Assembly (NCBI GenBank): GCA_029932985.1
Contig: JAOZPA010000005.1
Coordinates: 5,364 to 38,487, forward strand
From: Campylobacterales bacterium
Lineage (GTDB): Bacteria > Campylobacterota > Campylobacteria > Campylobacterales > JAOZPA01
Length of the DNA stretch: 33,124 bases
Direction of reading: 5' to 3'
This document shows, piece by piece, positions 1,751-24,498 of the stretch; the first letter of the stretch is position 1; each line of letters starts with the position of its first letter. The position numbers and the translations under genes are program-made. The notes below the pieces were generated by a model that was not told where the DNA came from, made no database searches, and was given only the letters and a program-made list of their open reading frames with translations.

Positions 1751-2650
1751 TTACCTCATCATCCTCTCTATTGTCATTCTCACATTTTTTGCCAAAGCAT
1801 TCACATCATATCCACCTTCGAGCATAAAAATAAAAGGAACATCGGCACAATTCAAAATATTTGTAACTATCTGTTCAATCCCCGCCGTCGTGACATTTAA
1901 AGATGCCAATGGGTCACTTTCGTGCAAATCATACCCAGCCGAAACCAAAATTATATCGGGTTCAAACTCATCGATTAGGGGTTGTAACTCATTTTCATAA
2001 ATATCCAAAATCATCTCATCACCACTTTCTGGCATCAAAAGATGATTCGAGGTGAACCCCTCACCCTCACCAATTCCTATCTCATCCTCCATCCCCGTAC
2101 CTGGAAAACACATCGTTTGGTGGGAGCTAAAATAGAAAACCGTATCATCCTCATAAAAAATATCCTGTGTACCATTTCCGTGGTGAACATCAAAATCTAT
2201 AATAAACACCTTTTCATAACCCTGTTTTTGTGCATATTTAGCTGTAATTGCGATATTATTAAAAAGGCAAAAACCCATCGCCATATCTTCGGTGCAATGA
2301 TGCCCTGGAGGTCGAACAGCACAAAATGCCCTATCAATCTCACTATTTTTAATCGCATCAATCGCCACTACTCCAGCCCCCACTGCCGTAATTGCAGACT
2401 GATAGGAATCTATCGAATTCACAGTATCACTATTTATCGGCTCACCATCCTTAATCTTTTGAATATGAAAAAACGGATGAACCATCTCTAATAACTCCTG
2501 CGAAACAGCAATCGGCTTTAAAAGCACTAACTCATCTTTCAAATCCTCCAACACCTCCTCAATCGCCACCAATCGCTCACTAGATTCAGGATGCCCAAAA
2601 CCCGTATCATGCAAAAGATAAATCTCATCATATATGTAACCCACTTGCAT
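1751..2650 (-). CDS. Histone deacetylase family (HDAC/acetoin-utilisation type) amidohydrolase
   Basis: This 299-aa Zn-dependent deacetylase has all expected active-site residues: the charge-relay pair H117-H118 in RPPGHH, zinc ligands D154 and H156 in DFDVHHGNGTQ, the third zinc ligand D246 in HESDPL, and the catalytic Tyr281 in LEGGYD. Known bacterial relatives remove acetyl groups from small molecules such as acetylpolyamines or from acetyl-lysine in proteins. The substrate cannot be told from sequence. The ATG is preceded by AAAGG at good spacing. It is a single gene facing mqnE and shares a divergent promoter region with the gene at 2718. It is probably a soluble cytoplasmic enzyme. Confidence 0.9.
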   Translation of the reverse strand: MQVGYIYDEIYLLHDTGFGHPESSERLVAIEEVLEDLKDELVLLKPIAVSQELLEMVHPFFHIQKIKDGEPINSDTVNSIDSYQSAITAVGAGVVAIDAIKNSEIDRAFCAVRPPGHHCTEDMAMGFCLFNNIAITAKYAQKQGYEKVFIIDFDVHHGNGTQDIFYEDDTVFYFSSHQTMCFPGTGMEDEIGIGEGEGFTSNHLLMPESGDEMILDIYENELQPLIDEFEPDIILVSAGYDLHESDPLASLNVTTAGIEQIVTNILNCADVPFIFMLEGGYDVNALAKNVRMTIERMMR

Positions 2651-2661
2651 TTTTTAACCTT

Positions 2662-2686
2662 TATAATATTTAGAATATTATATAAT
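2662..2686. promoter_or_regulatory. Divergent promoter with perfect 9-bp palindrome
   Basis: TATAATATT, TAG, AATATTATA (2662-2682) is a perfect inverted repeat. It contains a TATAAT for the reverse-strand deacetylase gene (2682-2677) and overlaps a second TATAAT (2681-2686) for the forward gene at 2718. The two -10 boxes therefore share one symmetric site, which could also be a repressor operator. Because it is made mostly of A and T, chance remains possible. Confidence 0.5.
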
Positions 2687-2717
2687 CATTTTTTAAAATA
2701 AAACTTAAAGGGGTCAC

Positions 2718-3023
2718 TTGAAACTGTTTATAGAGTGCAAATCTTTACTTTTGCAAAAGGCTTTAGAAAATTTTTTGAGTGATTTTGAGCTGATTCAAAA
2801 TGGTTATGATTTTAAAATTTGCGATGATGAGGGGCTGATAGATGATAAAATGGTTTTTGTAATAGCCCCAAACGGAAATTTAACTGTACCATTTTCAAAA
2901 GAGAAATTGATAAAAAAAATAACAGAATTTGAACCTAAAAGCTTGGAAGATATATTAAATATGATGTTTGATAATTTTAAAAAAGAGGTTTTTGAGGTGA
3001 TAAAAAAATATGAAAAGGGTTAG
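2718..3023 (+). CDS. Small conserved-looking cytoplasmic protein, function unknown
   Basis: This 101-aa acidic, soluble protein starts at TTG behind AAGGGG. The N-terminal half alternates short hydrophobic strands with polar turns (residues 1-55, including MVFVIAPNG). The C-terminal half is helical and Lys/Glu-rich, ending in EVIKKYEKG. It has no signal peptide or membrane segment, and I do not recognise a family. It lies 78 bases before the AAA-ATPase gene and could share its transcript. Its coding sequence carries one copy of a 16-bp element (2866-2881) whose inverted copy lies just downstream. Confidence 0.65.
   Translation: MKLFIECKSLLLQKALENFLSDFELIQNGYDFKICDDEGLIDDKMVFVIAPNGNLTVPFSKEKLIKKITEFEPKSLEDILNMMFDNFKKEVFEVIKKYEKG
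2866..2881 (+). repeat. Copy 1 of the CCCCAAACGGAAATT element
   Basis: CCCCAAACGGAAATTT lies inside the 101-aa gene, where it encodes part of APNGN. The exact 16 bases recur inverted at 3054-3069, and 15 of them recur directly at 23030-23044. It is GC-richer than its surroundings. Function unknown. Confidence 0.6.
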
Positions 3024-3053
3024 TATTTGGCAACGCACCCCAATCAAAAAGAA

Positions 3054-3069
3054 AAATTTCCGTTTGGGG
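3054..3069 (-). repeat. Copy 2 (inverted) of the CCCCAAACGGAAATT element
   Basis: AAATTTCCGTTTGGGG is the exact reverse complement of 2866-2881. It lies in the untranslated gap before the ATPase gene. Its TTTGGGG can also pair with CCCCAA at 3039-3044 to form a small loose hairpin that might end the upstream transcript. Confidence 0.6.
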
Positions 3070-3101
3070 ACTTAAAGCTAAAAAATTTAAAGGAGAGAAA
3101 G

Positions 3102-4814
3102 ATGAAAAAAAAGATACCTTATGGGATAAGTGATTTTAAATTAATAAGGGAGGAGAACTATTATTTTATAGATAAAACAAGATTTATCCTTGAAGTTGAA
3201 AATAGTGATAGATATATAATGTTTCTTCGTCCACGGAGGTTTGGGAAGTCGCTTTTTTTGGCGATTTTGGAAGCTTATTATGATAAATTTTATAAAGATG
3301 ATTTTGAACTGTTTTTTAAAGATAGTTATATTTTTACTCACAAAACAAAAGAGGCGAATAGTTATCATATTTTGAAGTTTGATTTTAGTGCTATTGATGT
3401 AAGGCGAGTTGAGGAGAGTTTTTTGTATTATCTAAATAAAGTTTTGAATAATTTTAAAAGTAGGTATCGTTTGAATTTTAGTTTTGATTCAACTAATCCA
3501 ATGGATAAGATAAATGGAATTTTTTCATATTTTCATCTTAATCCAAATGAGAGTTTATATGTGATGGTAGATGAATATGATAATTTTGCAAATAAACTAT
3601 TTTTGCAAAATCAATCCTCATATAAAAATATAATAAGTGATAAAACAGCTTTTTTTAAGCAATTTTTTACTATTTTGAAAGTGGGAGCTAGTGGAAATTC
3701 TGCTCCAATAAAGAGGATGTTTATCACAGGTGTAACTCCTATGACTATGTATGATGTTACAAGTGGATTTAATATTGCTAGTAATATTTCGATGGATAGA
3801 AATGTCAATGATATGGTGGGAATAACCCAAAAAGAGTTGGAGCAAATATTAGAGGATTTTGGTTTAAATGATTCAAAGTTTAATACTCAATACTTAGCAT
3901 TACTAAAAGAGTGGTATAATAATTATATTTTTAATGAAAATACAACAGAGGGAATTTATAATACAGATATGATTTTGTATTTTATCAAAGAGTATCTAAA
4001 AATAGGTAAAATTCCAAAAGATTTGATAGATATAAATGTCCGAAGTGATTATAGCAAATTACGGCATTTAATCTACACAAATCATAAATTAAATGGAAAT
4101 TTTGAGATATTAAAAAACTTAATCTCCAAAAATACCACAAGCATAGATTTACTAGTCAAAGATTTTAGTGCATTAGATTTAATCAAAGAGGAGAATTTTA
4201 AATCACTCCTATTTTATCAGGGTTTAATTACAATAAAAGAATCAAGATTAGATTTAACTCTACAAATTCCAAATGAGACAATCAAAAGAATAGATATAGA
4301 TTTTTTAAAAGATTCCCTCGCACTTGAAAATATATTCACCCTAAAAACATCAAAATTATCTGATTATTTAAAAAATTTCGCATTAAATGGAGATTTAGAG
4401 ACCTTTAAATATATAGCAAAAGAGATAAAACATCAAACCTCCATAAGAGATTATATCGATGGAGAAAATGGTGTAAAAATGATTTATATCGCTTACCTCT
4501 CACTAACTTCCTATTTTGTAATCAAAAGTGAAGCGGAGCTAAATAAAGGTTTTTGCGATATTTTGATAAAACCTCTAAATCCCTATGTTGAGTATTTTGC
4601 AATTGTAGAGTTAAAATATATCAGCAGAAAAGTAAAAGGTAAAAAATTAAAAAAAGAGATTGAAACAAAAAAAGCAAAAGCGATTGAACAATTAAATAGA
4701 TACCAAAATGATGAAATTGTAGAGTTTTACAAAAATAACGGTAAAATACTAAAAAAAATTATCATAATATTTTACGGCTGGAAAATGATTTTATGCGAAG
4801 AGATTAATACATAA
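3102..4814 (+). CDS. AAA-ATPase-like protein with C-terminal PD-(D/E)XK nuclease-like domain
   Basis: This is a 570-aa member of the widespread family that couples a predicted AAA-ATPase to a DUF1703-type PD-(D/E)XK domain. The N-terminus has the family signature PYGISDFKLI, then Walker A in RPRRFGKS (K49, S50) and Walker B in VMVDEYD (D157, E158). The C-terminal quarter holds the nuclease-like core: an Asp in GFCDILIK, then the AIVELK strand and a long Lys-rich helix. I chose ATG 3102 because AAGGAG lies before it and the conserved domain begins at once. An upstream in-frame TTG at 3027 would add 25 residues unlike the family. Such genes often occur in several copies and are suspected of defence or mobile-element roles, but the function is not established. 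Confidence 0.8.
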   Translation: MKKKIPYGISDFKLIREENYYFIDKTRFILEVENSDRYIMFLRPRRFGKSLFLAILEAYYDKFYKDDFELFFKDSYIFTHKTKEANSYHILKFDFSAIDVRRVEESFLYYLNKVLNNFKSRYRLNFSFDSTNPMDKINGIFSYFHLNPNESLYVMVDEYDNFANKLFLQNQSSYKNIISDKTAFFKQFFTILKVGASGNSAPIKRMFITGVTPMTMYDVTSGFNIASNISMDRNVNDMVGITQKELEQILEDFGLNDSKFNTQYLALLKEWYNNYIFNENTTEGIYNTDMILYFIKEYLKIGKIPKDLIDINVRSDYSKLRHLIYTNHKLNGNFEILKNLISKNTTSIDLLVKDFSALDLIKEENFKSLLFYQGLITIKESRLDLTLQIPNETIKRIDIDFLKDSLALENIFTLKTSKLSDYLKNFALNGDLETFKYIAKEIKHQTSIRDYIDGENGVKMIYIAYLSLTSYFVIKSEAELNKGFCDILIKPLNPYVEYFAIVELKYISRKVKGKKLKKEIETKKAKAIEQLNRYQNDEIVEFYKNNGKILKKIIIIFYGWKMILCEEINT

Positions 4815-8000: not shown

Positions 8001-9290
8001 TTAAAATTCGGGCTTGAGATTTGGCAAATCATAGATTGAACTATTATCATTTTCGATACTCTCCTCCTCCTCAACAATATCCTTTAGCAACAACTCCTCA
8101 ACTACCATCTCCTCCTCTTGCAGTGAGTGTACCTCTTCAAAAACCAGCTCATTCTCCTCTATATTTTGAATAGGTTTTTTCTGAATCTCATTTAATGCCA
8201 AATAATCATCTTTAGTCTGAACTCGCTCAATTGCTTTGTGCATTTTAAGGGGCATCAAAATTATCATATTTCCCCTATTATTCATCCCCATAGCCATATC
8301 TTTAGCGGAAACTCCTGAACCATAATAGACATCTGCACGGACATGACCTTTGATGGCATTTCCTGTATCGTGGGCAAACATCATCCTATTTATATATTTA
8401 TCCATTCCGTCATTGTAGGTGTAAAGCATCACAGGAGCACCCAATGGGATATATCTTTGGTCGATAGCGATGGAGAATTCTGGAGTGAGTTCGACCCCTG
8501 CACTGCCGATGGAGTTATGGCGATGTTGCTCTTTGAAAAAAATATAACGGCTGTACTGGTTATAGACTTTATCCGCTTGAGAGGGGAAGTTTCTAGCAAA
8601 TTTTTCTGCATTTGTTCTGTCGTAGATACCATATTTTTTTATCACTTTGAGTTTTAAATCTTCGGTGATTCCACCATTAAAAGCCATACCGTTATTGTTG
8701 TCATAGCCCAATTTTACGACTCCTCCGCTATACATATATATTGTTCCTGAGCCTTGGAGATGGAGTTGGTAACGGTCGTAACGATTATCTACATAGCAGA
8801 TAATTTTTGAGTTGATGACTTTTTTGTTGATATTTCGTCGGCTTAGTGTTTTGGAATATTGGGTTTGAGGGGTTGCATAGATTGGATATTTAAATCTTTT
8901 GGTTTGTGATACACTTCCAAAGGCTCGTGATTCATAATAGCCTGTAATTCTCCCCTTTTCTGTGCCATTGTCATTATTTATGATGTAGGGGACAAAATTG
9001 GTTTCAAAGAATTTTTGAGAATCAGAGATTCGGTAATTGTCTATCTCTTCACAAGCCTCTTCAAAATTTTCATCAATATCTCCTTTACAACTTTTTTTAA
9101 AAATTTCATAAGATTTATGAAAATTCTGCTTATCCCACCTTGGAACTCTTTGAAATGAAACCTGTGTTAAATTATCTGCATAAGTTTTATTAAAACTAGG
9201 TTGATTTAACCCAAAATTATAACCCTTAAAACTACATCCAGTGACAAGTAGCAAAATTGCTACAATAGATATAAATATTGATTTAAACAT
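8001..9290 (-). CDS. mltA: Membrane-bound lytic murein transglycosylase A (MltA), lipoprotein
   Basis: MltA cleaves the MurNAc-GlcNAc bond of peptidoglycan, forming 1,6-anhydro-MurNAc ends. The 429-aa protein starts with a lipoprotein signal peptide; the lipobox LVTGC puts the lipidated Cys at 19, giving an outer-membrane anchor. Family hallmarks are ITGYYE (116-120), LHLQGSG (176-182) and the C-terminal 3D domain: FAHDTGNAIKG with D308, then HVRADVYYGSG with D320. From about residue 360 there is an extra Glu-rich tail of roughly 70 residues beyond the usual catalytic core, perhaps a protein-binding extension. It stands alone on the reverse strand, with its promoter likely in 9300-9360. Confidence 0.92.
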   Translation of the reverse strand: MFKSIFISIVAILLLVTGCSFKGYNFGLNQPSFNKTYADNLTQVSFQRVPRWDKQNFHKSYEIFKKSCKGDIDENFEEACEEIDNYRISDSQKFFETNFVPYIINNDNGTEKGRITGYYESRAFGSVSQTKRFKYPIYATPQTQYSKTLSRRNINKKVINSKIICYVDNRYDRYQLHLQGSGTIYMYSGGVVKLGYDNNNGMAFNGGITEDLKLKVIKKYGIYDRTNAEKFARNFPSQADKVYNQYSRYIFFKEQHRHNSIGSAGVELTPEFSIAIDQRYIPLGAPVMLYTYNDGMDKYINRMMFAHDTGNAIKGHVRADVYYGSGVSAKDMAMGMNNRGNMIILMPLKMHKAIERVQTKDDYLALNEIQKKPIQNIEENELVFEEVHSLQEEEMVVEELLLKDIVEEEESIENDNSSIYDLPNLKPEF

Positions 9291-9627: not shown

Positions 9628-10395
9628 ATGACAAATAATAGCATATCTTATTTAATTCCTATTCCTAAGCAGAAAAGAAAAAGGCTGATTAACATGCAAA
9701 AATTAAATGAATTATCACTAAAGCAAAGAGAATCACTTTTTAGGCAATTGAGGGTATCAATTACTCATCATTCAAATGCGATGGAGGGGACTACTCTCTC
9801 TTATGGGGAGACAAAAGAGTTATTAGAAAATGGGAATACTGCAAAAAATAGACCCATTGGAGAACAACTTGTCATATTGGGATTTGCTAAAGCTTATGAT
9901 GTAATAATTCGTGAGGCGATGAATAAAGAGAATATTATAAATAGTAGTTTTATCAAAGACATTCATACTATTATGTTTGAAGATGCTTTGCAAATTTCAC
10001 CTTTTTTTGTTTCTACTCCTATCGGTGCATATCGGCTTGATGAAAGATATATAAAGGGTGTTGATATAAAACTATCTGCTCCAAATAAAATCTCTAATGA
10101 TATTGAAAATTTGCTTTATACATTTGATAGTAACAGTATGAACCTGTTGGATATATCGGAATTCCACATAGCATTTGAAAAAATTCATCCTTTTGCAGAT
10201 GGAAATGGTCGAGTGGGTAGATTATTGATGGCATATCAAGCAATACAAAATAATATTATTCCGCCATTAATTAAAAATGAGCATAGAGATGATTATTTGA
10301 AAACAATAAATGATAAAAATGAATTGACTTTTTTTCTTGAAAAATCTATCGAAAATAGTCTAAAATTAATTGCAATAATAGAAAAAAAGGGATAA
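9628..10395 (+). CDS. Fic-domain protein, likely AMP-transferase with built-in inhibitory helix
   Basis: Fic enzymes usually transfer AMP from ATP to a hydroxyl of a target protein. The 255-aa protein carries a complete Fic core motif, HPFADGNGR at residues 187-195 (catalytic H187). N-terminal to the core is SNAMEG (S49-G54), which fits the inhibitory pattern (S/T)xxxE(G/N), with E53 expected to block productive ATP binding. This is the self-contained, class II-type arrangement, so no separate antitoxin is required. The start is uncertain: ATG 9628 has no Shine-Dalgarno sequence, and ATG 9694 (residue 23) has a weak one. The RNase R gene begins two bases after the stop, suggesting co-transcription. 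The target protein is unknown. Confidence 0.88.
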   Translation: MTNNSISYLIPIPKQKRKRLINMQKLNELSLKQRESLFRQLRVSITHHSNAMEGTTLSYGETKELLENGNTAKNRPIGEQLVILGFAKAYDVIIREAMNKENIINSSFIKDIHTIMFEDALQISPFFVSTPIGAYRLDERYIKGVDIKLSAPNKISNDIENLLYTFDSNSMNLLDISEFHIAFEKIHPFADGNGRVGRLLMAYQAIQNNIIPPLIKNEHRDDYLKTINDKNELTFFLEKSIENSLKLIAIIEKKG

Positions 10396-12950: not shown

Positions 12951-12978
12951 TTGATTTTAACTAAAAAGATTATATAAT
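12951..12978 (+). promoter_or_regulatory. Promoter of the seven-gene sensor cluster
   Basis: TTGATT (12951-12956) and TATAAT (12973-12978) are separated by 16 bases, a good sigma-70-type promoter. It would start transcription near 12985, about 25 bases before the first gene, whose ATG at 13011 follows AGAGG. It is the only convincing promoter seen before the terminator at 20800. Confidence 0.65.
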
Positions 12979-13010
12979 ACGAATTAATTTTTATCAAGAG
13001 GATATTTTAG

Positions 13011-14120
13011 ATGAAATGGGAAGGTTTAGGAGATATAAATCTATTAATTGTCGAAGATGATCCTTTTAATATGGAACTTGCTACTACTATATTTCAAGAG
13101 ATTAGTTCAATTAATATTTTTCGTGCTTATAATGGGCAAGAGGCTTTAAAAATTTTGCAACAAGAAGATATAAGTATGATGATATTGGATATTCACATGC
13201 CTATCTTAAATGGTTTTGATACACTCAAAGCTACGAGAAAACAGCTTAAATATAATTTTATTCCTGTTGTCGTGGTGACTGGTGAAGAGGTTGAGATGGA
13301 GAAATCTTATGAGCTGGGGGCTGATGATTTTGTATCTAAGCCATACAATCCAGTGGAGCTTAAATCGAGAGTTTTTACTCATCTCAAAAAATCAAAATAT
13401 CGAGAAAAATTTTATAATTTAAATCAAAGTATGGAGAAAGAGATTGCGCTGAAAAATAAGCAATTATTACAAAGTATGGCAGATTTAGAAAGTATTCAAA
13501 AAAAACTTTTTTACAGAATGGGTCAAATTGTAGATTTCAAAAAGAATTTTGGGAATAACAAAAGAGTAGCAGTTATTTCTAAACAGTTTGCTTTAAGACT
13601 TGGATTAAGTAAAGAGGAAGCTGATAATATTTTTTATGCGGCGATGATAAGAAATTGGGGACTTTTAGCACTTCCTGATGAAATAGCCAATCAAAATGAG
13701 CGTTTAATGCAAAGAGATAGGCGGATGGTGGAAAAATTTATCCTATCTGGGAGCAAACTTCTAAAAGATGTAGCACAAACAGAATTTTTAAAAGTTGTAG
13801 ATTCTGTATTGACTCAATATAAAGAAAACTATGATGGTAGTGGCTATCCCAATAAATTAAAAGATAATCAAATTAGCCAATATGCTACAATTGTGGCAAT
13901 TGCAGAGACTTTTGATGCTCTTTTATCCTCTCGAAAATATAGATATAAAAATAAATTTACGGCAAATGAAACTAAAACAATTTTAAAAACAAATAGTGGT
14001 CGGCGATTTAAACCAAATATAATAAAAGTGTTTTTAAATAATTACAATGAGTTTATTATAACTAGAGAAGGTTTAGTCAGAAGAGAGATGAAAAAACAAG
14101 AAAAAAATAAAAAGGGGTAA
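13011..14120 (+). CDS. Response regulator with fully degenerate HD-GYP domain (paralogue 1)
   Basis: The 369-aa protein has a receiver domain (1-125; acidic pair in VEDD, phospho-acceptor D60, K110), a coiled-coil linker (about 130-170) and an HD-GYP-like domain (170-350). The GYP motif is kept in YDGSGYP, but the metal ligands are gone: the HD pair reads R214-N215, the next His is F243, the HHE motif reads Y270-K271-E272, and the late Asp is E299. Phosphodiesterase activity against cyclic-di-GMP is therefore unlikely; the domain more likely binds a ligand or partner. This resembles the use of a degenerate HD-GYP response regulator (HnoD) as an allosteric regulator in the Shewanella nitric-oxide system. 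It is the first gene of the operon; the FIST gene follows after two bases. Confidence 0.85.
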   Translation: MKWEGLGDINLLIVEDDPFNMELATTIFQEISSINIFRAYNGQEALKILQQEDISMMILDIHMPILNGFDTLKATRKQLKYNFIPVVVVTGEEVEMEKSYELGADDFVSKPYNPVELKSRVFTHLKKSKYREKFYNLNQSMEKEIALKNKQLLQSMADLESIQKKLFYRMGQIVDFKKNFGNNKRVAVISKQFALRLGLSKEEADNIFYAAMIRNWGLLALPDEIANQNERLMQRDRRMVEKFILSGSKLLKDVAQTEFLKVVDSVLTQYKENYDGSGYPNKLKDNQISQYATIVAIAETFDALLSSRKYRYKNKFTANETKTILKTNSGRRFKPNIIKVFLNNYNEFIITREGLVRREMKKQEKNKKG

Positions 14121-14122
14121 AT

Positions 14123-15256
14123 ATGAAAAGTGTGATGGTTCATTCCTATTCAATTAAAGAGTTATTGATTCAAATAAACAAAAAAAGAAAAGAGGGTTTT
14201 AAGCCCACTATGGCATTTGTTTATGCTTCAGTTTCTCATAATATTAGAAAACTTGTAGCGGAACTAAGTGGTTATCCATTTATGATTTTTGGGGCTACTA
14301 CTGTTGGTGAGATTTTTGCAAATGAAGAGTTTGGAGTCAATAGCAAAGATGAGAGTATTATTTGCCTACTTTTAGAGGTTAATCCAAAAGCCGTAGGAAT
14401 TAAACTGTTTCAAACAGAGGATAGAGATGCATTTGAGATGGGTCAAGAGGTTGCAAAATGGTCAAAAAGTAAATTCAAAGACCCCGCAATCATAACTGCC
14501 ACTTCTGGACTTTTATTTGATAACGATGCATATACTCAAGGAATTGTAAAAGCTGGAGTTGAGTATGCTTTTGGTGGATTAGCTGGAGATGATATGATAC
14601 TAAAAGATACATTTGTATTTTCAAAAGAGAATTTTTCTAGCCATGGTGTCATTGCTTTGGCAATAGATAGAGAAAAAATAGAGATTGTTGGCTCAAGAGC
14701 TTTTGGCTGGGCAGGGATTGGTCGAGAGCGAATTGTAACAAAAGCTCATAAAAATATTGTATATGAGATAGATGGCAAACCTGCAGTTGATTTTTATAAA
14801 AGTTATCTTCATATCACAAGTGCAGATATGCCCCAAACGGGAATTGAGTATCCACTTGAGGTAATTATGAAAAATAAACAGGTCGTTTATCGTGCGGTTT
14901 TGGGGATTGATGACAAGGCTGGAGCATTGATATTTGGTGGGCATGTTGAACTTAAATCAAGAGTAAGAATCTCCGCTCCTAGAGGTAAGGTTATAATAGA
15001 CCATGTTACGGAAAGTATCATACAGGCTAAAAAAGATGCAAATGATTTCAAACCAGAATTAGCTTTGGTTTTTCCATGTTGCTCCAGAAAACAAGTTTTA
15101 GGAAATTTTACCATAGATGAGGTAACAGCTGCTTATAAAGCGATAGGTGCGCCACTTGTAGGATTTTTTGCTTATGGTGAAATTGGAGCATTTCCTGGTG
15201 GTTATGGTTTTCACAACGAAACATTTGTGACTGCACTTTTGAGAGAGAAGGAGTAA
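14123..15256 (+). CDS. FIST-domain sensor protein (FIST_N plus FIST_C)
   Basis: The 377-aa cytoplasmic protein shows the FIST architecture: FIST_N over about 25-220 (YASVSHNIRKL, FGATTVGEIF, FGGLAGDD) and FIST_C over about 225-370 (VFPCCSRKQVLG, GFFAYGEIGAFPGG). FIST proteins are predicted small-ligand sensors, and some (NosP) are haem-based nitric-oxide sensors that control a neighbouring hybrid kinase. The direct neighbour here is such a kinase, only three bases downstream, so a sensor-kinase pair is a sound inference. Haem binding cannot be confirmed from sequence. The ATG follows AAAAGGGG. Amino acids are the other ligand proposed for the family. Confidence 0.88.
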   Translation: MKSVMVHSYSIKELLIQINKKRKEGFKPTMAFVYASVSHNIRKLVAELSGYPFMIFGATTVGEIFANEEFGVNSKDESIICLLLEVNPKAVGIKLFQTEDRDAFEMGQEVAKWSKSKFKDPAIITATSGLLFDNDAYTQGIVKAGVEYAFGGLAGDDMILKDTFVFSKENFSSHGVIALAIDREKIEIVGSRAFGWAGIGRERIVTKAHKNIVYEIDGKPAVDFYKSYLHITSADMPQTGIEYPLEVIMKNKQVVYRAVLGIDDKAGALIFGGHVELKSRVRISAPRGKVIIDHVTESIIQAKKDANDFKPELALVFPCCSRKQVLGNFTIDEVTAAYKAIGAPLVGFFAYGEIGAFPGGYGFHNETFVTALLREKE

Positions 15257-15259
15257 CTT

Positions 15260-17353
15260 ATGACAAAAATAAGTATGACAAAAACAGAAAAAATAAAATC
15301 AATTATTGCATCATTGCCTACATTTAAAAACAAAGATGTAATACTTCGAGAACTTACACACATTCAAGAGGATAATGATAAAACATATCAAAAATATGTG
15401 AAGGCAAATGAGGATAAATTAACTCTCTCCCATCTTCTCTCAAAAGTAAATGATGAGCTGGAGGATTCTCTAGTTAATGAAAAACGATTTATTGCATCAG
15501 TTTCTCATGAGTTGCGAACTCCATTGACTGCGATTTTGGGATATAGTGAGCTTTTGGATGATACAGCTTTAAATAATAAACAAAAACGATACCTTGATAG
15601 TATAATTCAAAGTTCTAACCATCTTCTTTCATTAATTACTGACCTTTTAGATGTTGCTAAATTAGAAGATAATAGAATTGAGCTTAGCCCACGAGAGGTA
15701 GATTTGGATGATATTTTAAATGATTGTGCAACTTTAATCACCTCAAAAATTAATAAAGATGTTGACTTTTTTGTAGATATTCCACTGCTTGATTATACAA
15801 TTATGGCAGATGATAAACGGGTAAAACAGATTTTTGTAAATCTTTTATCAAATGCAGCGAAATTTACAAGTAAAGGTTCGATTCGATATTATGTGAGTGC
15901 ATTAGATGAATTGGATAATAATAAATTGAGAATTGTTGTGAATGTTGATGATACGGGTAATGGTGTGCCTAAAGAGGTGGAATCAACTCTATTTGACCCA
16001 TTTCAATCGACCGATAAAACTCAAGGAACAGGGCTGGGACTTTTTATATCTCAACAATTAGCTGGAATGATGGATGGTGAGATTACTGTTACTTCACGAG
16101 AGGGGATTGGAAGTAGTTTTAAAGTTTCTATTATAGTACAAAGAGGTGAGAAAAAGGAGATTGGGGCATCTTTGAAAGGGGTAAATATTATGATGTTTTC
16201 CCATAGAGATGAGTTTGTCAATAGACTTTCTAAAGAGTTTATGCACTTAGGGGCAAATTTTTTAAATCATGATATAACTACGGGTGATTTAACTTCGTCA
16301 CTTGTGCAGATGGTTGTAAGTGGAAGATTTTATGATATTGGAATTTTTGATTTAGATATATTTAACAAATATACAAATTATATAGCAGGAACTCTAAAAG
16401 CGGTAAATAAAGATATAAAATTGGTAGCTCTTGCTGGAAAAGATAATGACGAATCTTTGGCTGAGTTTGATAAAGTTATAAATAAACCAATTACCCATCA
16501 GCGATTCATTAAAGAGACTGAAGAGATTTTTGAGTCTGAATTTTTTAATACAGAGGAGGAGGTTAGTTATAGTGACCTTCGAGTTTTGATTGTGGAGGAT
16601 GTGGAGCTTAATCGTGAATATGAAAAAGAGATGTTGGATAATTTCTTTTCTATATCGTGTGACACTGCAATTCATGGAGCGATGGCAGTAGAAAAAGTCC
16701 AACAAAATGAGTATGATGTTGTTTTGATGGATATGAGAATGCCTGTGATGGATGGATTAGAGGCGACGGAAAAAATTAGAACATTTAATAAAGATTTGCC
16801 GATTATTTGTATGAGTGCAAATGTTTATAAAGAGGATAAGATGGCAGCAGAAGATGCTGGTATGAATGATTTTATCGAAAAACCCCTTGATAAAAAAGAT
16901 ATTGAAACGAAATTGATAAAAATAATAAATGGTGATTTTAAGAGATATGATGATACAGAAATAACATCTTCTCAATCTTTTGCACCTGCAATTAACTCAG
17001 AAACTCCAGAAGCTAAGCAAGAGTCCACTTCAGAGGAGCTAAGAGAGATTGCATTGTCTCATCTTAAAAGTAATTTTAATGATGCTATTGCAAATAAACT
17101 TTTTGGCAAAGCGGTGATGAGTGTCACAGAATATAGAGATAGAGTTGTTACAAACTTTGCAAATAAAGATATAAAAGAGCTTATTGAAGATTTTCATGCC
17201 CTAAAAGGGGTTCTTGCAAATATTGGTCTAAAAGAGTTGTCTGATGAAGCAGGGGATTTACAAAAATTAGCAGAAGATGGTAATTTTATGTTGATAATTG
17301 ACCCTAAAGAGCATCTTTTGAAATATATAAATCTTTTTTTAACGACTAGCTAA
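15260..17353 (+). CDS. Soluble hybrid histidine kinase with pseudo-receiver, receiver and HPt domains
   Basis: This 697-aa protein has no membrane segment or recognisable sensor domain. In order: a short helical N-terminus; HisKA with SHELRTPL (H83); an ATPase domain with N-box N194 and N198, DDTGNG (230-235) and GTGLGL (256-261); a receiver-like region (about 307-420) that keeps an Asp in IFDLDIF and K409 but lacks the acidic pair; a full receiver (about 440-550; acidic E446-D447, D491 in LMDMRMP, K541); an acidic linker; and an HPt domain with HALKG (H646). The expected relay is H83 to D491 to H646, then to the separate response regulators. Lacking its own sensor, it probably takes input from the FIST protein. 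AGGAG precedes the ATG. Confidence 0.92.
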   Translation: MTKISMTKTEKIKSIIASLPTFKNKDVILRELTHIQEDNDKTYQKYVKANEDKLTLSHLLSKVNDELEDSLVNEKRFIASVSHELRTPLTAILGYSELLDDTALNNKQKRYLDSIIQSSNHLLSLITDLLDVAKLEDNRIELSPREVDLDDILNDCATLITSKINKDVDFFVDIPLLDYTIMADDKRVKQIFVNLLSNAAKFTSKGSIRYYVSALDELDNNKLRIVVNVDDTGNGVPKEVESTLFDPFQSTDKTQGTGLGLFISQQLAGMMDGEITVTSREGIGSSFKVSIIVQRGEKKEIGASLKGVNIMMFSHRDEFVNRLSKEFMHLGANFLNHDITTGDLTSSLVQMVVSGRFYDIGIFDLDIFNKYTNYIAGTLKAVNKDIKLVALAGKDNDESLAEFDKVINKPITHQRFIKETEEIFESEFFNTEEEVSYSDLRVLIVEDVELNREYEKEMLDNFFSISCDTAIHGAMAVEKVQQNEYDVVLMDMRMPVMDGLEATEKIRTFNKDLPIICMSANVYKEDKMAAEDAGMNDFIEKPLDKKDIETKLIKIINGDFKRYDDTEITSSQSFAPAINSETPEAKQESTSEELREIALSHLKSNFNDAIANKLFGKAVMSVTEYRDRVVTNFANKDIKELIEDFHALKGVLANIGLKELSDEAGDLQKLAEDGNFMLIIDPKEHLLKYINLFLTTS

Positions 17354-17371
17354 TTGGAAAAGGGTGAAATT

Positions 17372-18445
17372 TTGAATTGGAATGAATTTGATAATATAAA
17401 AATATTAATCGCAGAGGATGATATATTTAATAGAGAATTTTTAGTATCTATGTTTATAGAGTATGAAAATTTTGAAATTCTTGAAGCTCAAGATGGGCAG
17501 GAAGCTTATGAAAAGATTTTGAAATATCCTCTTGATGTGATTTTACTAGATGTGCATATGCCAAAAAAAAATGGACTTGAGATAGTAAAAGATATGAGAA
17601 AGATGGAGAAATTTACATCAGTCCCCGTAATCGTGATAACTTCTGACAAGCACGATAAAACAAAAGCTCTGGAGTATGGGGCAAATGATTTTTTGCCAAA
17701 GCCTTATGATACGATGGAGCTAAAGGTTAGAGTTTATAATCAAGTAAAACTGCGAAAATATTCTCAAAAATTAGAGGAGCAGGTGGCTATAAAAACTCAA
17801 CAGTTGAGAGCAAAGATGAGTAAGATTGAGGAAACTCAACGGAAATTACTTTTGAGAATTGCTCTTTTTAGTGAAAAGCAGATGACAGATAAATCAAGTC
17901 ATAAAGTGGAAAAAATTGCAATTTATACAAAATATTTATCTCAAATGTGTGGGCTTTCTGCTGATAAACAGGAAGATATTTACTACTCATCTGCGCTTCA
18001 TAATATAGGTTTTTTTGCTTTACCAAACGAGATAAGAACAAAAAAAGGTCAATATAATGCTCGTGAGAGGGCAGAGATGCAAAAACATATTGGATATGGA
18101 AGCAAATTTTTATCAGGACTAGAGGAGACTGATTTGGTGAGAATTGCAAAACCGATAATATCACAATATAGTGAAAACTGGGATGGAAGTGGTTATCCAA
18201 AGGGATTAAAGGGAGATGAAATTTCTATCTATGCTAGAATTGTCACAGTTTGTGTACATTTCAATGCACTTACAACTCCTCGAGATTATAGAGAAAAAAA
18301 AGTTTTATCAGATAAAGAGGTTTATTCATCTATGAAAAGTGAATCTGGAATAACTTTTGACCCTATTTTACTAAATGTTTTTTTAAAAAATTTCAAAAAA
18401 TTCATACAAATAAAAGATAAATTAATTAAAAAGGTATCAAATTGA
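17372..18445 (+). CDS. Response regulator with partly degenerate HD-GYP domain (paralogue 2)
   Basis: From TTG 17372 the protein has 357 aa and its start aligns exactly with paralogue 1; AAAGGG lies eight bases before it. An earlier TTG at 17354 would add six residues without a ribosome-binding site. The receiver has D60 in LLDVHMP and K110. After a coiled coil, the HD-GYP domain keeps H210 of the HD pair (D becomes N211), the following His (H239 in KHIGYG) and the WDGSGYP motif. It replaces the two His of HHE with Y266-S267 (E268 stays) and loses the late Asp (V295, with N298 nearby). Catalysis is unlikely because four of six ligands are lost. It overlaps paralogue 3 by four bases, so both are probably translated together. 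Confidence 0.85.
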   Translation: MNWNEFDNIKILIAEDDIFNREFLVSMFIEYENFEILEAQDGQEAYEKILKYPLDVILLDVHMPKKNGLEIVKDMRKMEKFTSVPVIVITSDKHDKTKALEYGANDFLPKPYDTMELKVRVYNQVKLRKYSQKLEEQVAIKTQQLRAKMSKIEETQRKLLLRIALFSEKQMTDKSSHKVEKIAIYTKYLSQMCGLSADKQEDIYYSSALHNIGFFALPNEIRTKKGQYNARERAEMQKHIGYGSKFLSGLEETDLVRIAKPIISQYSENWDGSGYPKGLKGDEISIYARIVTVCVHFNALTTPRDYREKKVLSDKEVYSSMKSESGITFDPILLNVFLKNFKKFIQIKDKLIKKVSN

Positions 18446-19509
18446 TAGACTGGGAAAGCTTTGGAAATGTATCCATACTTAGTGTAGAGGATGATGGATT
18501 TAATCAAGAATTAGCTTCTGCGATTTTTGAAGAGATAGAAAATGTAACAGTTTATAGAGCTGAAAATGGAGAGGAAGCTTTAGATCTTTTGAAAAACATC
18601 TATGTAGATGTAATTTTACTCGATTTAATGATGCCAAAAATGAATGGATTTGAAACTTTAAAATCATTAAAATCAGATGAAAAATTAAGCTCAATTCCTG
18701 TAATTGTGGTTACTTCAAAAGAGGAGGAGAAAAAAACTACCTATAAATTGGGTGCAAATGATTTTATCTCTAAGCCATACAATCCAGAGGAGTTAAAATT
18801 AAGAACCTTTACTCACTTAAAGATGAAAAAATTTGCAGATATTTTAACAGGTATTAAAACTTCATATAAAAGTGATGATGCAAGTGGTTCAAAAAACTTT
18901 TCTGAATTAAAAGAGATTTTGGAAATTGTGGATAGCTCACAAAAACAGTTACTCTTCAAGCTAGGAAATCTTTCCCATGAAGATGAAACAAAAGATAGTA
19001 ATGCTTCTAAGCGATTAGGGGAATATGCTAAATATTTAGCAAAACTTCAAGGCTTGAACTCTAAAGATATAGAGAATATCTATTATTCTATGTCTATTTA
19101 TGATATAGGTTTTTTACGAATTCCTAAAGATATTTTGATTAAAAAATCTTATGGAGAGATTAGAAAGCATCCAGAACTTGGTGTTGAAATTTTAAAAGAT
19201 TTAAAAGAGACAGCACTTATTAAAATGGCAAAAGAGATAACATATATGCATCATGAAGATTGGGATGGTAATGGTTATCCACGAGGAATTAAAGAGTATG
19301 AAATATCAATTTATGCTAGAATCGCCTCAATTATTGATTATTTTGATGAGCTTACAACTAAGAGGTCTTATAGTGAAACTCTTTTATCTTCAAGTGAAGC
19401 TTTGGATGTTATGAAAAGAGAGCGAGGTTCAAAATTTGACCCTGCACTTTTAGATATGTTTATCAATAATTTTGATGAATTCATATCAATAAAAAAAAGA
19501 TATTCCTAA
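18442..19509 (+). CDS. Response regulator with nearly intact HD-GYP domain (paralogue 3)
   Basis: The 355-aa protein begins at TTG inside the TTGA overlap with paralogue 2. The receiver has D61 in LLDLMMP and K111. The HD-GYP domain keeps D221, H243 (RKHPELG), H270-H271-E272 in HHEDWDGNGYP and D299 in IIDYFDEL, but the first His of the HD pair is Tyr220 (IYDIGF). Five of six classical metal-ligand positions remain. Reduced or altered phosphodiesterase activity is possible, so this is the best candidate for an active output of the three. The REC to HD-GYP linker is Ser/Lys/Asp-rich and differs from the coiled coils of the other two. Confidence 0.86.
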   Translation: MIDWESFGNVSILSVEDDGFNQELASAIFEEIENVTVYRAENGEEALDLLKNIYVDVILLDLMMPKMNGFETLKSLKSDEKLSSIPVIVVTSKEEEKKTTYKLGANDFISKPYNPEELKLRTFTHLKMKKFADILTGIKTSYKSDDASGSKNFSELKEILEIVDSSQKQLLFKLGNLSHEDETKDSNASKRLGEYAKYLAKLQGLNSKDIENIYYSMSIYDIGFLRIPKDILIKKSYGEIRKHPELGVEILKDLKETALIKMAKEITYMHHEDWDGNGYPRGIKEYEISIYARIASIIDYFDELTTKRSYSETLLSSSEALDVMKRERGSKFDPALLDMFINNFDEFISIKKRYS

Positions 19510-19524
19510 AATAAAGGTATTGAG

Positions 19525-19953
19525 ATGTTGGCTAGAAACTATAATCCACTTTTAATTAAATTATTAAAAAAAGACCATCAGCAACTTTTTGCAATCTATG
19601 GAGATATATTAAATCTTCTTAAAAAAAATGCAAATTTTACAGAGATTCAAAATCTATTAGATGAGTTAAAAGTGGTATTATCTATGCACATAGATTTTGA
19701 AAACTCTCAACTATATTCATATCTTAAAAATATTTATAAAGAGGATAAAGCTAAATTATCATTTTTAAATGGTGCAGATAGAGATATGGGTGAAATTGTA
19801 GATATTGCTTTAAGATTTATAGATAAATTTTCAGAATATGAAGTTTTTATAAAGCAAAAAAAAGAGTTTGAAGAGGAGCTAAAACTTATAGGAGATGTTT
19901 TAGTAGATAGAGTTGGATTTGAGGAAAATCGACTCTATACATTATATAACTAA
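19525..19953 (+). CDS. Hemerythrin-like HHE-domain protein with incomplete ligand set
   Basis: The 142-aa all-helical protein has the hemerythrin/HHE layout: H18 in KKDHQQL (helix 1), H55 and E59 in MHIDFE (helix 2), and the C-terminal FEENRLY block (helix 4). In helix 3 the His is replaced (ADRDMGE, about residue 86), and the helix-4 His four residues before the EE pair is Arg129. A normal diiron O2 site is therefore doubtful; it may bind one metal, bind differently, or act as a scaffold. Hemerythrins commonly sense O2 or NO in signalling operons, which fits this cluster. The ATG follows AAGG; it lies 15 bases after paralogue 3 and 11 before the ODP gene. Confidence 0.75.
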   Translation: MLARNYNPLLIKLLKKDHQQLFAIYGDILNLLKKNANFTEIQNLLDELKVVLSMHIDFENSQLYSYLKNIYKEDKAKLSFLNGADRDMGEIVDIALRFIDKFSEYEVFIKQKKEFEEELKLIGDVLVDRVGFEENRLYTLYN

Positions 19954-19964
19954 GGAGGTTTAAT

Positions 19965-20759
19965 ATGAAATTAGGGAATAGGGAATATAATCTAAAAACA
20001 GATGCGGTCTTGCTTTTGCAAAAAGGAAATCATTCTGTTTATTGGATTGGAACAGATAGTGAAGCGGTACTTAGAAACAATATTTATTTAATCAAAGATG
20101 GTGATGAGGGGATGGTGGTAGATTGTGGGAGCAGAGATGATTTTAAATCGACTTTATCTCGAATTAGACAAATTATGCCAATTAGAAATATCAACAGACT
20201 TTTTATCAATCATCAAGACCCAGATGTAAGTTCAGGAATGGTTGATTGGCTTAAATTAAATCCAAATATCGAGGTCATAACTTCTCCAAATATTAATGTA
20301 TTGATAAAACATTACGGGGTGGGAGATTATAAATACTTTAATACTCAACGAAATCCATCATTAACATTTAAATCTGGTGAAATCTTAGATTTTATCCCCT
20401 CACCATTTATGCACTCTCCAGGGGCAGTTACAATATATCATAGAACATTAAAAACACTTTTTTCGGGTGATATTTGGGCAGCTATAGCTATGGAATGGGA
20501 TTTGATTGTAAAAGGAGATTTTGATGAGCATATTGAATCTATGGATTTTTTCCATACCGATTATATCGCATCAAATAAAGCTTCACGAAATTTTTTAATT
20601 AATTTTAAAGACAAAGAAGTAAATAATATTTTTCCTCAACATGGTAGCATAATTACCAAAAAAAATGTGAAAAAAGCGATGAGATATTTAAGAGACTTAA
20701 AATGTGGGACAGATTTTTTCAAAGAAATTTCAGATGAAGAGCTTAGTTTTATGAATTAA
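19965..20759 (+). CDS. Diiron beta-lactamase-fold protein of the ODP/flavodiiron family
   Basis: The 264-aa protein is a stand-alone metallo-beta-lactamase-fold domain without the flavodoxin part of flavodiiron proteins. Expected iron ligands are all visible: H83, D85 and D87 in NHQDPDVSSG, H150 in PFMHSPGA, D169 in FSGDIWA and H226 in PQHG. The HxDxD form in place of HxExD is the type known from ODP, the oxygen-binding diiron protein that works with chemotaxis proteins in Treponema denticola. A role as O2 (or NO) sensor feeding the phosphorelay is inferred. It has the strongest ribosome-binding site of the cluster (AAGGAGGT), so it is probably abundant. It is the last gene before a terminator. 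Confidence 0.85.
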   Translation: MKLGNREYNLKTDAVLLLQKGNHSVYWIGTDSEAVLRNNIYLIKDGDEGMVVDCGSRDDFKSTLSRIRQIMPIRNINRLFINHQDPDVSSGMVDWLKLNPNIEVITSPNINVLIKHYGVGDYKYFNTQRNPSLTFKSGEILDFIPSPFMHSPGAVTIYHRTLKTLFSGDIWAAIAMEWDLIVKGDFDEHIESMDFFHTDYIASNKASRNFLINFKDKEVNNIFPQHGSIITKKNVKKAMRYLRDLKCGTDFFKEISDEELSFMN

Positions 20760-20799
20760 TTTGTAATATAAGAAATATGAATTCAATAAGATGGGAATC

Positions 20800-20821
20800 A
20801 AGCCGATAAATCAGCTTTTTT
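20800..20821 (+). terminator. Terminator after the sensor cluster
   Basis: AAGC-C-GA, TAAA loop, TC-A-GCTT (20800-20817) forms a stem with one C-A mismatch, and the T run (20816-20821) follows directly. It ends the seven-gene unit about 40 bases after the ODP stop codon. Confidence 0.55.
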
Positions 20822-20989: not shown

Positions 20990-21066
20990 TGGTGGGTCCA
21001 CCAGGACTCGAACCTGGGACCACTCGGTTATGAGCCGAGTGCTCTAACCAACTGAGCTATGGACCC
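20990..21066 (-). tRNA. tRNA with CAU anticodon (tRNA-Ile2 or elongator tRNA-Met)
   Basis: A full 77-base cloverleaf reads on the reverse strand: acceptor GGGTCCA (21066-21060) pairing with TGGACCC (21000-20994), D arm GCTC...GAGC, anticodon stem CTCGG/CCGAG with loop CTCATAA (anticodon complementary to 21030-21032), T arm CCAGG-TTCGAGT-CCTGG, discriminator A and an encoded CCA (20992-20990). The G1-C72 pair rules out the initiator type. The GGCTCATAACC core and GGTC variable loop look more like lysidine-modified tRNA-Ile(CAU) than elongator tRNA-Met, but the assignment is not certain. Confidence 0.93.
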
Positions 21067-23557: not shown

Positions 23558-24031
23558 TTAGATTGTTGAATTACTATTGTGTTTTTGCCAATTACTTTTT
23601 CCTTGAACTTTTTCAATTGTTCTTGCACCAAAATATGCAGCTACTACTACCATTAAAAGATTTTGATAACCTTCAGCATATATTGGTTGAATCTCAAGTG
23701 CAGTTGCTGAAAAAGCCATTATTGAATAAACTATTATTAGAAAAATAAGTGAAAGTGGACGAACCATTCTCTGAATAAAAGATGAATTATTATCACTCAC
23801 CCATCTTTTTGTAGTCTCTTGGTCTATCGCAATATTTTCACGACTTGCCACCTCATACTCTCTAATGCTTAATTTTTTCATCTCAATTTCATAATTCATA
23901 CTAGCTTTAGCAATCTCATTTTCCATCTCGATTTTTTCTTCATCTGTGGTAAAATTTTTGTCGATTGCATTACCAACTGCCTCTATCACTCCTGCTCCTG
24001 CCGCTGTTGCAAATTTACTTAAAAAACTCAT
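23558..24031 (-). CDS. Holin of the GTA_holin_3TM type
   Basis: From ATG 24031 the protein has 157 aa; AAGGAG lies ahead of it, and a TTG seven codons upstream is less likely. An Ala/Gly-rich N-terminus (about 4-22), an acidic coiled-coil region (30-75) and two membrane segments (about 92-109 and 122-136) follow the pattern of the '3TM holin for gene-transfer release' family, including the MVRPLSL lead-in and AYFGART tail. Holins open the inner membrane so that a muramidase can reach peptidoglycan. Its start overlaps the muramidase stop (ATGA), so the two are made together. No phage structural genes are near. Confidence 0.8.
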   Translation of the reverse strand: MSFLSKFATAAGAGVIEAVGNAIDKNFTTDEEKIEMENEIAKASMNYEIEMKKLSIREYEVASRENIAIDQETTKRWVSDNNSSFIQRMVRPLSLIFLIIVYSIMAFSATALEIQPIYAEGYQNLLMVVVAAYFGARTIEKVQGKSNWQKHNSNSTI

Positions 24032-24498
24032 GATAATGCTCTCCTTACCCAACCAAAAAAGTATTTTCTATTTTTTGGACTTCTCTCACAAAGATATGTA
24101 TATCTAGCAATCTTCGCCAACACAAATGTGGACATAAACAAATCTTTATTAAACTCATTTAAAGCCTCTACCGTCTTCGGACCTATCGAACCATCAGCCT
24201 GAACATCCAGAACCAGTTGAGCCATCTTGCTACTCGTCCGAATCCCCGCATTCACACCAAAATCAAAAATTGACTCAGCAATCTCCTGCGACTCTATCAA
24301 ATCACCCTTGACTCTATCCCAATAATACTCCTTATAAATCTCCATAGCTCCCTCACGAGTGAGATTCCGAATATCTACATTTCGATGAGCCCGTTTGCTA
24401 ATACCCCAATTAGTTTCACCACCACTATCACTTGGGTCATTGACATAACCACCTTCATGCCTTAGCACCTTTTCAATCGCAATATAAAAATCTGCCAT
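24028..24498 (-). CDS. GH108-family muramidase (TtsA/phage-endolysin-like)
   Basis: The 156-aa protein has the GH108 N-terminal signature with catalytic E15 in LRHEGGYVNDPSDSGG, followed by TNWGIS, and a C-terminal peptidoglycan-binding part (VQADGSIGPKTVEALN). It has no signal peptide, as expected when a holin provides exit. Known relatives are phage lysozymes and TtsA, which releases typhoid toxin through the cell wall. Its ATG follows AAGGAT and it is the first gene of the pair. The promoter should lie in 24499-24600, which is AT-rich without a clear box. Confidence 0.88.
   Translation of the reverse strand: MADFYIAIEKVLRHEGGYVNDPSDSGGETNWGISKRAHRNVDIRNLTREGAMEIYKEYYWDRVKGDLIESQEIAESIFDFGVNAGIRTSSKMAQLVLDVQADGSIGPKTVEALNEFNKDLFMSTFVLAKIARYTYLCERSPKNRKYFFGWVRRALS

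Follow-up and report, generated by a model that had tools for sequence, protein, structure and literature searches.

The seven-gene signalling operon in the 33,124-nucleotide stretch of Campylobacterales DNA that we analysed (hereafter the window) is an enlarged circuit of the known nosRPK type rather than a novel class of system. Not all seven genes belong to the conserved unit, which in related Campylobacterota consists of a REC-HD-GYP regulator (RR1), a FIST protein, a hybrid kinase with an HPt domain and a further REC-HD-GYP regulator (RR3). Judging by their sequences, the HD-GYP regulators are maintained pseudo-phosphodiesterases rather than c-di-GMP-degrading outputs. Taken as a whole, the operon is best explained, with reasonable though not high confidence, as a NosP-type accessory-sensor phosphorelay with outputs that act by binding partners.

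Operon organization and conservation

All seven open reading frames lie on the plus strand in the order given by the original prediction: RR1 (13011–14120), FIST (14123–15256), hybrid kinase (15260–17353), RR2 (17354–18445), RR3 (18442–19509), a hemerythrin-like protein (19525–19953) and an oxygen-binding diiron protein (ODP; 19965–20759). The reading frames are separated by 0–15 bases, with one overlap of 4 bases. RR2 probably starts at TTG 17372, which is preceded by AAAGGG and gives an x-N-W start as in RR1 and RR3; the gap before it then becomes 18 bases. Pfam assigns REC and HD_5 to each of the three regulators, and FIST_N-FIST_C, HisKA-HATPase-REC-HPt, Hemerythrin and ODP to the other genes in turn. 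The genes are co-directional and tightly packed, with gaps of 0–18 bases or overlaps. The gene maf is found upstream of the operon; downstream are a tRNA on the minus strand (20993–21066) and then phosphofructokinase.

A single promoter and a terminator had been proposed for the operon, and each stands in part. The AT-rich window has 60 promoter-like sites against 62.4 expected, no excess over chance, so the site at 12951–12978 (plus strand) is not significant by itself. Its -10 box (TATAAT, 12973–12978) is supported by the recurrence of its position rather than by its frequency: in four relatives (L031, L035, L037 and L137), two of which are close to each other, TATAAT lies 36–40 bases 5' of the operon's first gene, and L034 has TAGAAT at the corresponding place. 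The -35 box shows no conservation across the relatives compared. The hairpin with a T tract at 20800–20821 (plus strand) falls below the criteria of the terminator scanner, but folds better than shuffled sequence (z -3.2), which makes it a plausible though weak terminator.

Searching genome contigs with the kinase revealed seven loci at 60–65% identity, all from Campylobacterota (Sulfurovum and others), followed by a drop to at most 41%. FIST is 58–67% identical among the related loci, and a search with RR3 added two more genomes carrying the operon (G349 and G367). Wherever the contigs of relatives are long enough to tell, the order is RR1-FIST-kinase-RR3; in one locus (L036) RR1 is a bare receiver of 140 residues. 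The FIST/kinase/REC-HD-GYP phosphorelay group is therefore conserved as predicted, but the seven-gene set is not. Among the loci compared, RR2 and the hemerythrin-like gene belong to the operon only in the window. ODP lies 3' in four of the eight informative loci, following RR3 in L031 (twice), L032 and L034 and the hemerythrin-like gene in the window, and is missing from this place in the other four (L033, L035, L037 and L139). The genome that carries the L035 contig (G289) has orthologues of both ODP (65%) and the hemerythrin-like protein (48%) on other contigs, apart from the operon. The operon is also lineage-restricted: among about 400 genomes of the order, RR3 matches above 50% identity turned up in just 3 apart from its own.

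FIST and the hybrid kinase

The kinase has the Pfam architecture HisKA-HATPase-REC-HPt and is cytoplasmic. Pfam recognises no sensor domain in it, and the stretch of residues from about 300 to 435 is without a match. All of its phosphorylation sites are intact: HisKA His83, REC Asp491 and HPt His646, the last at exactly the residue named in the original prediction. The HPt motif is conserved among the orthologues.

The FIST protein, a candidate accessory sensor of this kinase, scores above the Pfam cut-offs for both FIST_N (100.9 bits) and FIST_C (87.3 bits) and so belongs to the FIST family. It is not identified as NosP, as it reaches 49.3 bits with the NosP model NF041558, which has a cut-off of 450 bits. 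In addition, the C-terminal His common to two NosP sequences occupies a different column of the gapped alignment in the window FIST. For both reasons the binding of haem or NO by this protein, while possible, is doubtful. His174, His274 and Cys319 are invariant in the orthologues, and neither His is shared with the two NosP sequences examined. By sequence we found no FIST relative with a solved structure; the AlphaFold model, of moderate quality (pLDDT 59), resembles FBXO22. A partnership between FIST and the hybrid kinase is likely by analogy, as this gene order and function are established for nosRPK, and as two other campylobacterotal loci (L140 and L141) encode a fusion of FIST with PAS-HisKA-HATPase next to genes for REC-HD-GYP proteins.

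These observations leave considerable room for the same phosphorelay responding to something other than a gas, such as an amino acid, a metabolite or haem itself. Such a ligand would be compatible with our best explanation, of which it is a variant, and would agree with the distance from the NosP cut-off, with the invariant His174 and His274 that the NosP sequences lack and with the FIST of Vibrio cholerae CdpA, which is tied to haem and not to NO (PMC8846402). On the other hand, the closest characterised gene arrangement, nosRPK, is NO-responsive, and relatives of ODP sense O2/Fe. On balance we regard a non-gas ligand as quite possible, if somewhat short of an even chance.

ODP and the hemerythrin-like protein

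The operon had been credited with two iron-type O2/NO proteins, and this description suits only one of them. ODP is a genuine member of the oxygen-binding diiron protein family: it scores 191.8 bits with Pfam PF19583, above the cut-off, matches the solved Treponema denticola ODP at E 3e-43 and, when aligned with the structures 6qrq/6qnm, retains the HQDPD, H, D and H iron ligands. The helical hemerythrin-like protein exceeds the Pfam Hemerythrin cut-off (45.5 versus 25.3 bits) but not that of TIGR02481 (25.1 versus 51.75 bits), and it lacks the canonical five-His diiron ligand set. Just two canonical His are present and conserved, and an Arg precedes the C-terminal EE; the protein is a member of a conserved Campylobacterota family in which two His, one Glu and an Arg...Glu-Glu at the C terminus are conserved. 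The AlphaFold model of this protein alone is too poor for use (pLDDT 44).

The addition of ODP to the operon is real and constitutes its most distinctive part. In L031, L032 and L034 the ODP gene overlaps RR3, implying translational coupling. Six other genomes have a solo ODP (44–46% identical) directly 5' of a gene for a coiled-coil output protein, namely GGDEF-EAL (n=2), GGDEF (n=1) or PAS-kinase (n=3), with PAS as the sole known sensor among them. ODP-kinase fusions occur three times in the genome of the window, and L141 has an ODP-GGDEF fusion. The T. denticola ODP is coupled to a chemoreceptor that has no sensing module, and ODP relatives are sensors of O2/Fe (PMC7666581). Such pairings and fusions with kinases and GGDEF/EAL proteins make ODP a plausible second input to the hybrid kinase, and gas sensing by ODP is likewise plausible. 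This input would not be obligatory, because ODP is missing 3' of RR3 in half of the informative loci and sits on another contig in G289. More generally, the pattern suggests that kinases and diguanylate cyclases of Campylobacterota can use ODP as a plug-in sensor.

It is also conceivable that neither ODP nor the hemerythrin-like protein provides input to the kinase and that these are independent iron/O2 stress proteins which share the transcript by chance. In favour of this reading, many orthologous operons have neither gene, and in G289 each stands alone on another contig. The overlap with RR3 in three loci and the pairing or fusion of ODP with signalling outputs elsewhere speak against it; little can be set against it in the case of the hemerythrin-like protein. 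For the two proteins together we find this reading credible, though less likely than not.

Degenerate HD-GYP regulators

RR1, RR2 and RR3 each consist of a receiver with an intact phosphoacceptor (Asp60, Asp66 and Asp61, respectively) and a domain that matches Pfam HD_5 at E 1e-27 to 1e-29. By position RR1 is NosR-like. The best NCBIfam match of all three is the NosR model NF053512, yet their scores of 131–135 bits are below its 400-bit cut-off. We mapped onto them by alignment the eight metal ligands of the active enzyme PmGH (E185, H189, H221, D222, H250, H276, H277 and D305) as well as K225; the alignment numbering agrees with the published residues (PMC4159591). RR1 keeps none of the eight ligands, RR2 two and RR3 five. 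H189 and K225 are absent from all three regulators and the HD pair is intact in none: the HDxGK position reads RNWGL in RR1, the pair is HN in RR2, and it is YD (Tyr-Asp) in all nine RR3 sequences. The GYP motif is intact in all three, and DGxGYP is retained throughout the RR3 sequences. The idea that the operon has three c-di-GMP phosphodiesterases as outputs thus fails. With H189 and K225 lost, and at least one residue of the HD pair gone from each regulator, hydrolysis of c-di-GMP by RR1–RR3 is very unlikely.

The same kind of degeneracy is seen in the orthologues, which keep 0–1 of the eight ligands in RR1 and 2–5 in RR3. Related REC-HD-GYP proteins of other Campylobacterota (L140–L149) have 7–8, and so have four further HD-GYP proteins encoded in the window's own genome (contigs C32, C77, C176 and C185). 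In close pairs dN/dS is 0.18 for RR1 and 0.10–0.13 for RR3, compared with 0.075–0.12 for the kinase and FIST. The shared degeneracy and the purifying selection (dN/dS 0.10–0.18) are what indicates that the pseudo-phosphodiesterases are maintained; pseudogene decay is rejected on the basis of dN/dS together with the open frames. Recent triplication of one regulator within the operon can also be rejected, since RR1, RR2 and RR3 fall into separate well-supported clades. RR2 groups with two orphan paralogues of the same genome (contigs C80 and C138), each with 2 of the 8 ligands.

If the regulators do not hydrolyse c-di-GMP, they might merely compete for phosphate and buffer the signal, having no distinct outputs, with the kinase acting mainly as a phosphatase or phosphate sink. 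NosK has been inferred to be mainly a phosphatase in vivo (PMC12570481), one HPt would feed several receivers, and RR1 of L036 has been reduced to its receiver. A pure sink, however, would have no need for HD-GYP domains, and those of RR1 and RR3 are under purifying selection, so we consider this arrangement improbable. Gas-controlled degradation of c-di-GMP by three active HD-GYP phosphodiesterases, to which the strong HD_5 matches, the intact GYP motifs, the five ligands of RR3 and the HnoB and NarR outputs (PMC8846402) might lend some credit, is less probable still, because no HD pair is intact, H189 and K225 are gone from all three, the orthologues are equally degenerate (YD in 9/9 RR3) and alanine at H189, H221, D222, H250, H276, H277 or K225 essentially abolishes PmGH activity (PMC4159591).

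Proposed mechanism

In the NosP-type phosphorelay that we favour, the cytoplasmic FIST protein would bind a ligand and thereby set the activity of the sensorless hybrid kinase; in NosP relatives this ligand is NO, bound through haem. Phosphate would then pass from His83 to Asp491, on to His646 of the HPt domain and finally to the receiver Asp of RR1 and RR3 and, in this genome, also of RR2. Phosphorylation is expected to alter the binding of partners by RR1–RR3, with no hydrolysis of c-di-GMP. This kind of output has been proposed for NosR of Burkholderia pseudomallei (PMC12570481), and partner binding has been shown for other REC-HD-GYP proteins such as RpfG, in which the GYP motif is the part needed for binding GGDEF proteins (PMC3749722). 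The most likely partners are GGDEF, EAL and HD-GYP proteins of the c-di-GMP network. The genome contains 18 GGDEF, 7 EAL and four canonical HD-GYP matches, so c-di-GMP signalling exists and partners are on offer; none of its proteins matches PilZ. Where ODP is present, the kinase would receive from it a second input, that of Fe(II)/O2.

A bolder version is that the sensorless hybrid kinase is under joint control of FIST and a diiron protein for O2/Fe(II) and that all outputs are binding-only pseudo-phosphodiesterases. We think this version less likely than not, but if it were true, scaffolding would wholly replace catalysis in one branch of the c-di-GMP network. In any case, one relay has several maintained, catalytically dead HD-GYP regulators and sister operons have canonical ones, so that the function of pseudo-HD-GYP domains becomes directly testable in this relay. 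NosP-like circuits are at the same time extended to Campylobacterota.

Comparison with known systems

To our knowledge, HnoK, the kinase of the H-NOX-HnoK-HnoB/HnoD system of Shewanella oneidensis, has no HPt domain. That system resembles the window operon in having several c-di-GMP-type regulators fed by one kinase, including HnoD, which is not an enzyme but an inhibitor of a phosphodiesterase; it differs in that its sensor is H-NOX and HnoB is an active phosphodiesterase (PMC8846402). NosP-NahK-NarR of Legionella pneumophila is likewise an operon of FIST, kinase and c-di-GMP-type response regulator, but NarR is an active GGDEF-EAL enzyme (PMC11237717, PMC8846402). In the RpfC-RpfG system of Xanthomonas a phosphorelay also leads to a REC-HD-GYP protein that acts, among other ways, through GYP-dependent GGDEF binding, whereas its sensor is a membrane protein for DSF and RpfG is catalytically active (PMC3749722). 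The T. denticola ODP (TDE2498) is a homologue of the window ODP with a matching iron-ligand pattern, and it is genetically coupled to TDE2496, a signalling protein without a sensor of its own, although this partner is a chemoreceptor and not a hybrid kinase (PMC7666581).

The closest counterpart is nosRPK of B. pseudomallei, where NosP binds the kinase NosK, which in turn phosphorylates the degenerate HD-GYP protein NosR (PMC12570481). Two claims of novelty do not survive this comparison. NosP itself is a FIST protein, so FIST is no new replacement of H-NOX; and the composition is not wholly undescribed, since FIST with a kinase and a degenerate REC-HD-GYP is already present in nosRPK (PMC12570481). 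Both operons have the order REC-HD-GYP, FIST, kinase, a degenerate HD-GYP domain (HG-GTP in B. pseudomallei) and a kinase without a recognised sensor domain. The differences are that NosK is a plain kinase and the window kinase a hybrid with REC and HPt, that nosRPK has one regulator compared with two conserved and three in this genome, that nosRPK has no ODP, and that the window FIST and RR1 score far under the NosP and NosR model cut-offs. The nosRPK-type circuit is thus enlarged here by a kinase of the hybrid type that carries an HPt, by additional pseudo-HD-GYP regulators and, in part of the relatives, by ODP.

Other genes in the window

Besides the operon, the window encodes a histone-deacetylase family protein (1751-2650, minus strand) and, upstream of an RNase R-like gene, a Fic/DOC family protein (9628-10395). 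A possible phage remnant lies at 23558-24498 on the minus strand: a glycosyl hydrolase 108 endolysin-like gene, adjoined by one for a small protein that matches no Pfam family and may be holin-like.

Relatives of the operon components

In one other Campylobacterota genome (L036, 7424-7843), the orthologue of RR1 is only 140 residues long and has been reduced to its receiver domain. Two orphan REC-pseudo-HD-GYP paralogues of RR2 are found on contigs C80 and C138 of the window's own genome, and both share the HN change of RR2.

For ODP, the oxygen-binding diiron protein, we identified an ODP-GGDEF domain fusion in L141 (genome G378, 2172-3530), a candidate O2/Fe-controlled diguanylate cyclase located ~3 kb upstream of a canonical REC-HD-GYP/FIST-kinase operon. 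In each of six Campylobacterota genomes (L205-L210), a solo ODP gene stands immediately upstream of a gene for a GGDEF-EAL protein, a GGDEF protein or a PAS-kinase.

A broader Campylobacterota operon type, seen at L140-L149, contains two kinases, a hybrid one and a sensor kinase of the FIST, NIT or membrane type, together with a canonical REC-HD-GYP, an HDOD protein and often a single receiver; at L144, such an operon is followed by an H-NOX (HNOB) gene (8112-8681).
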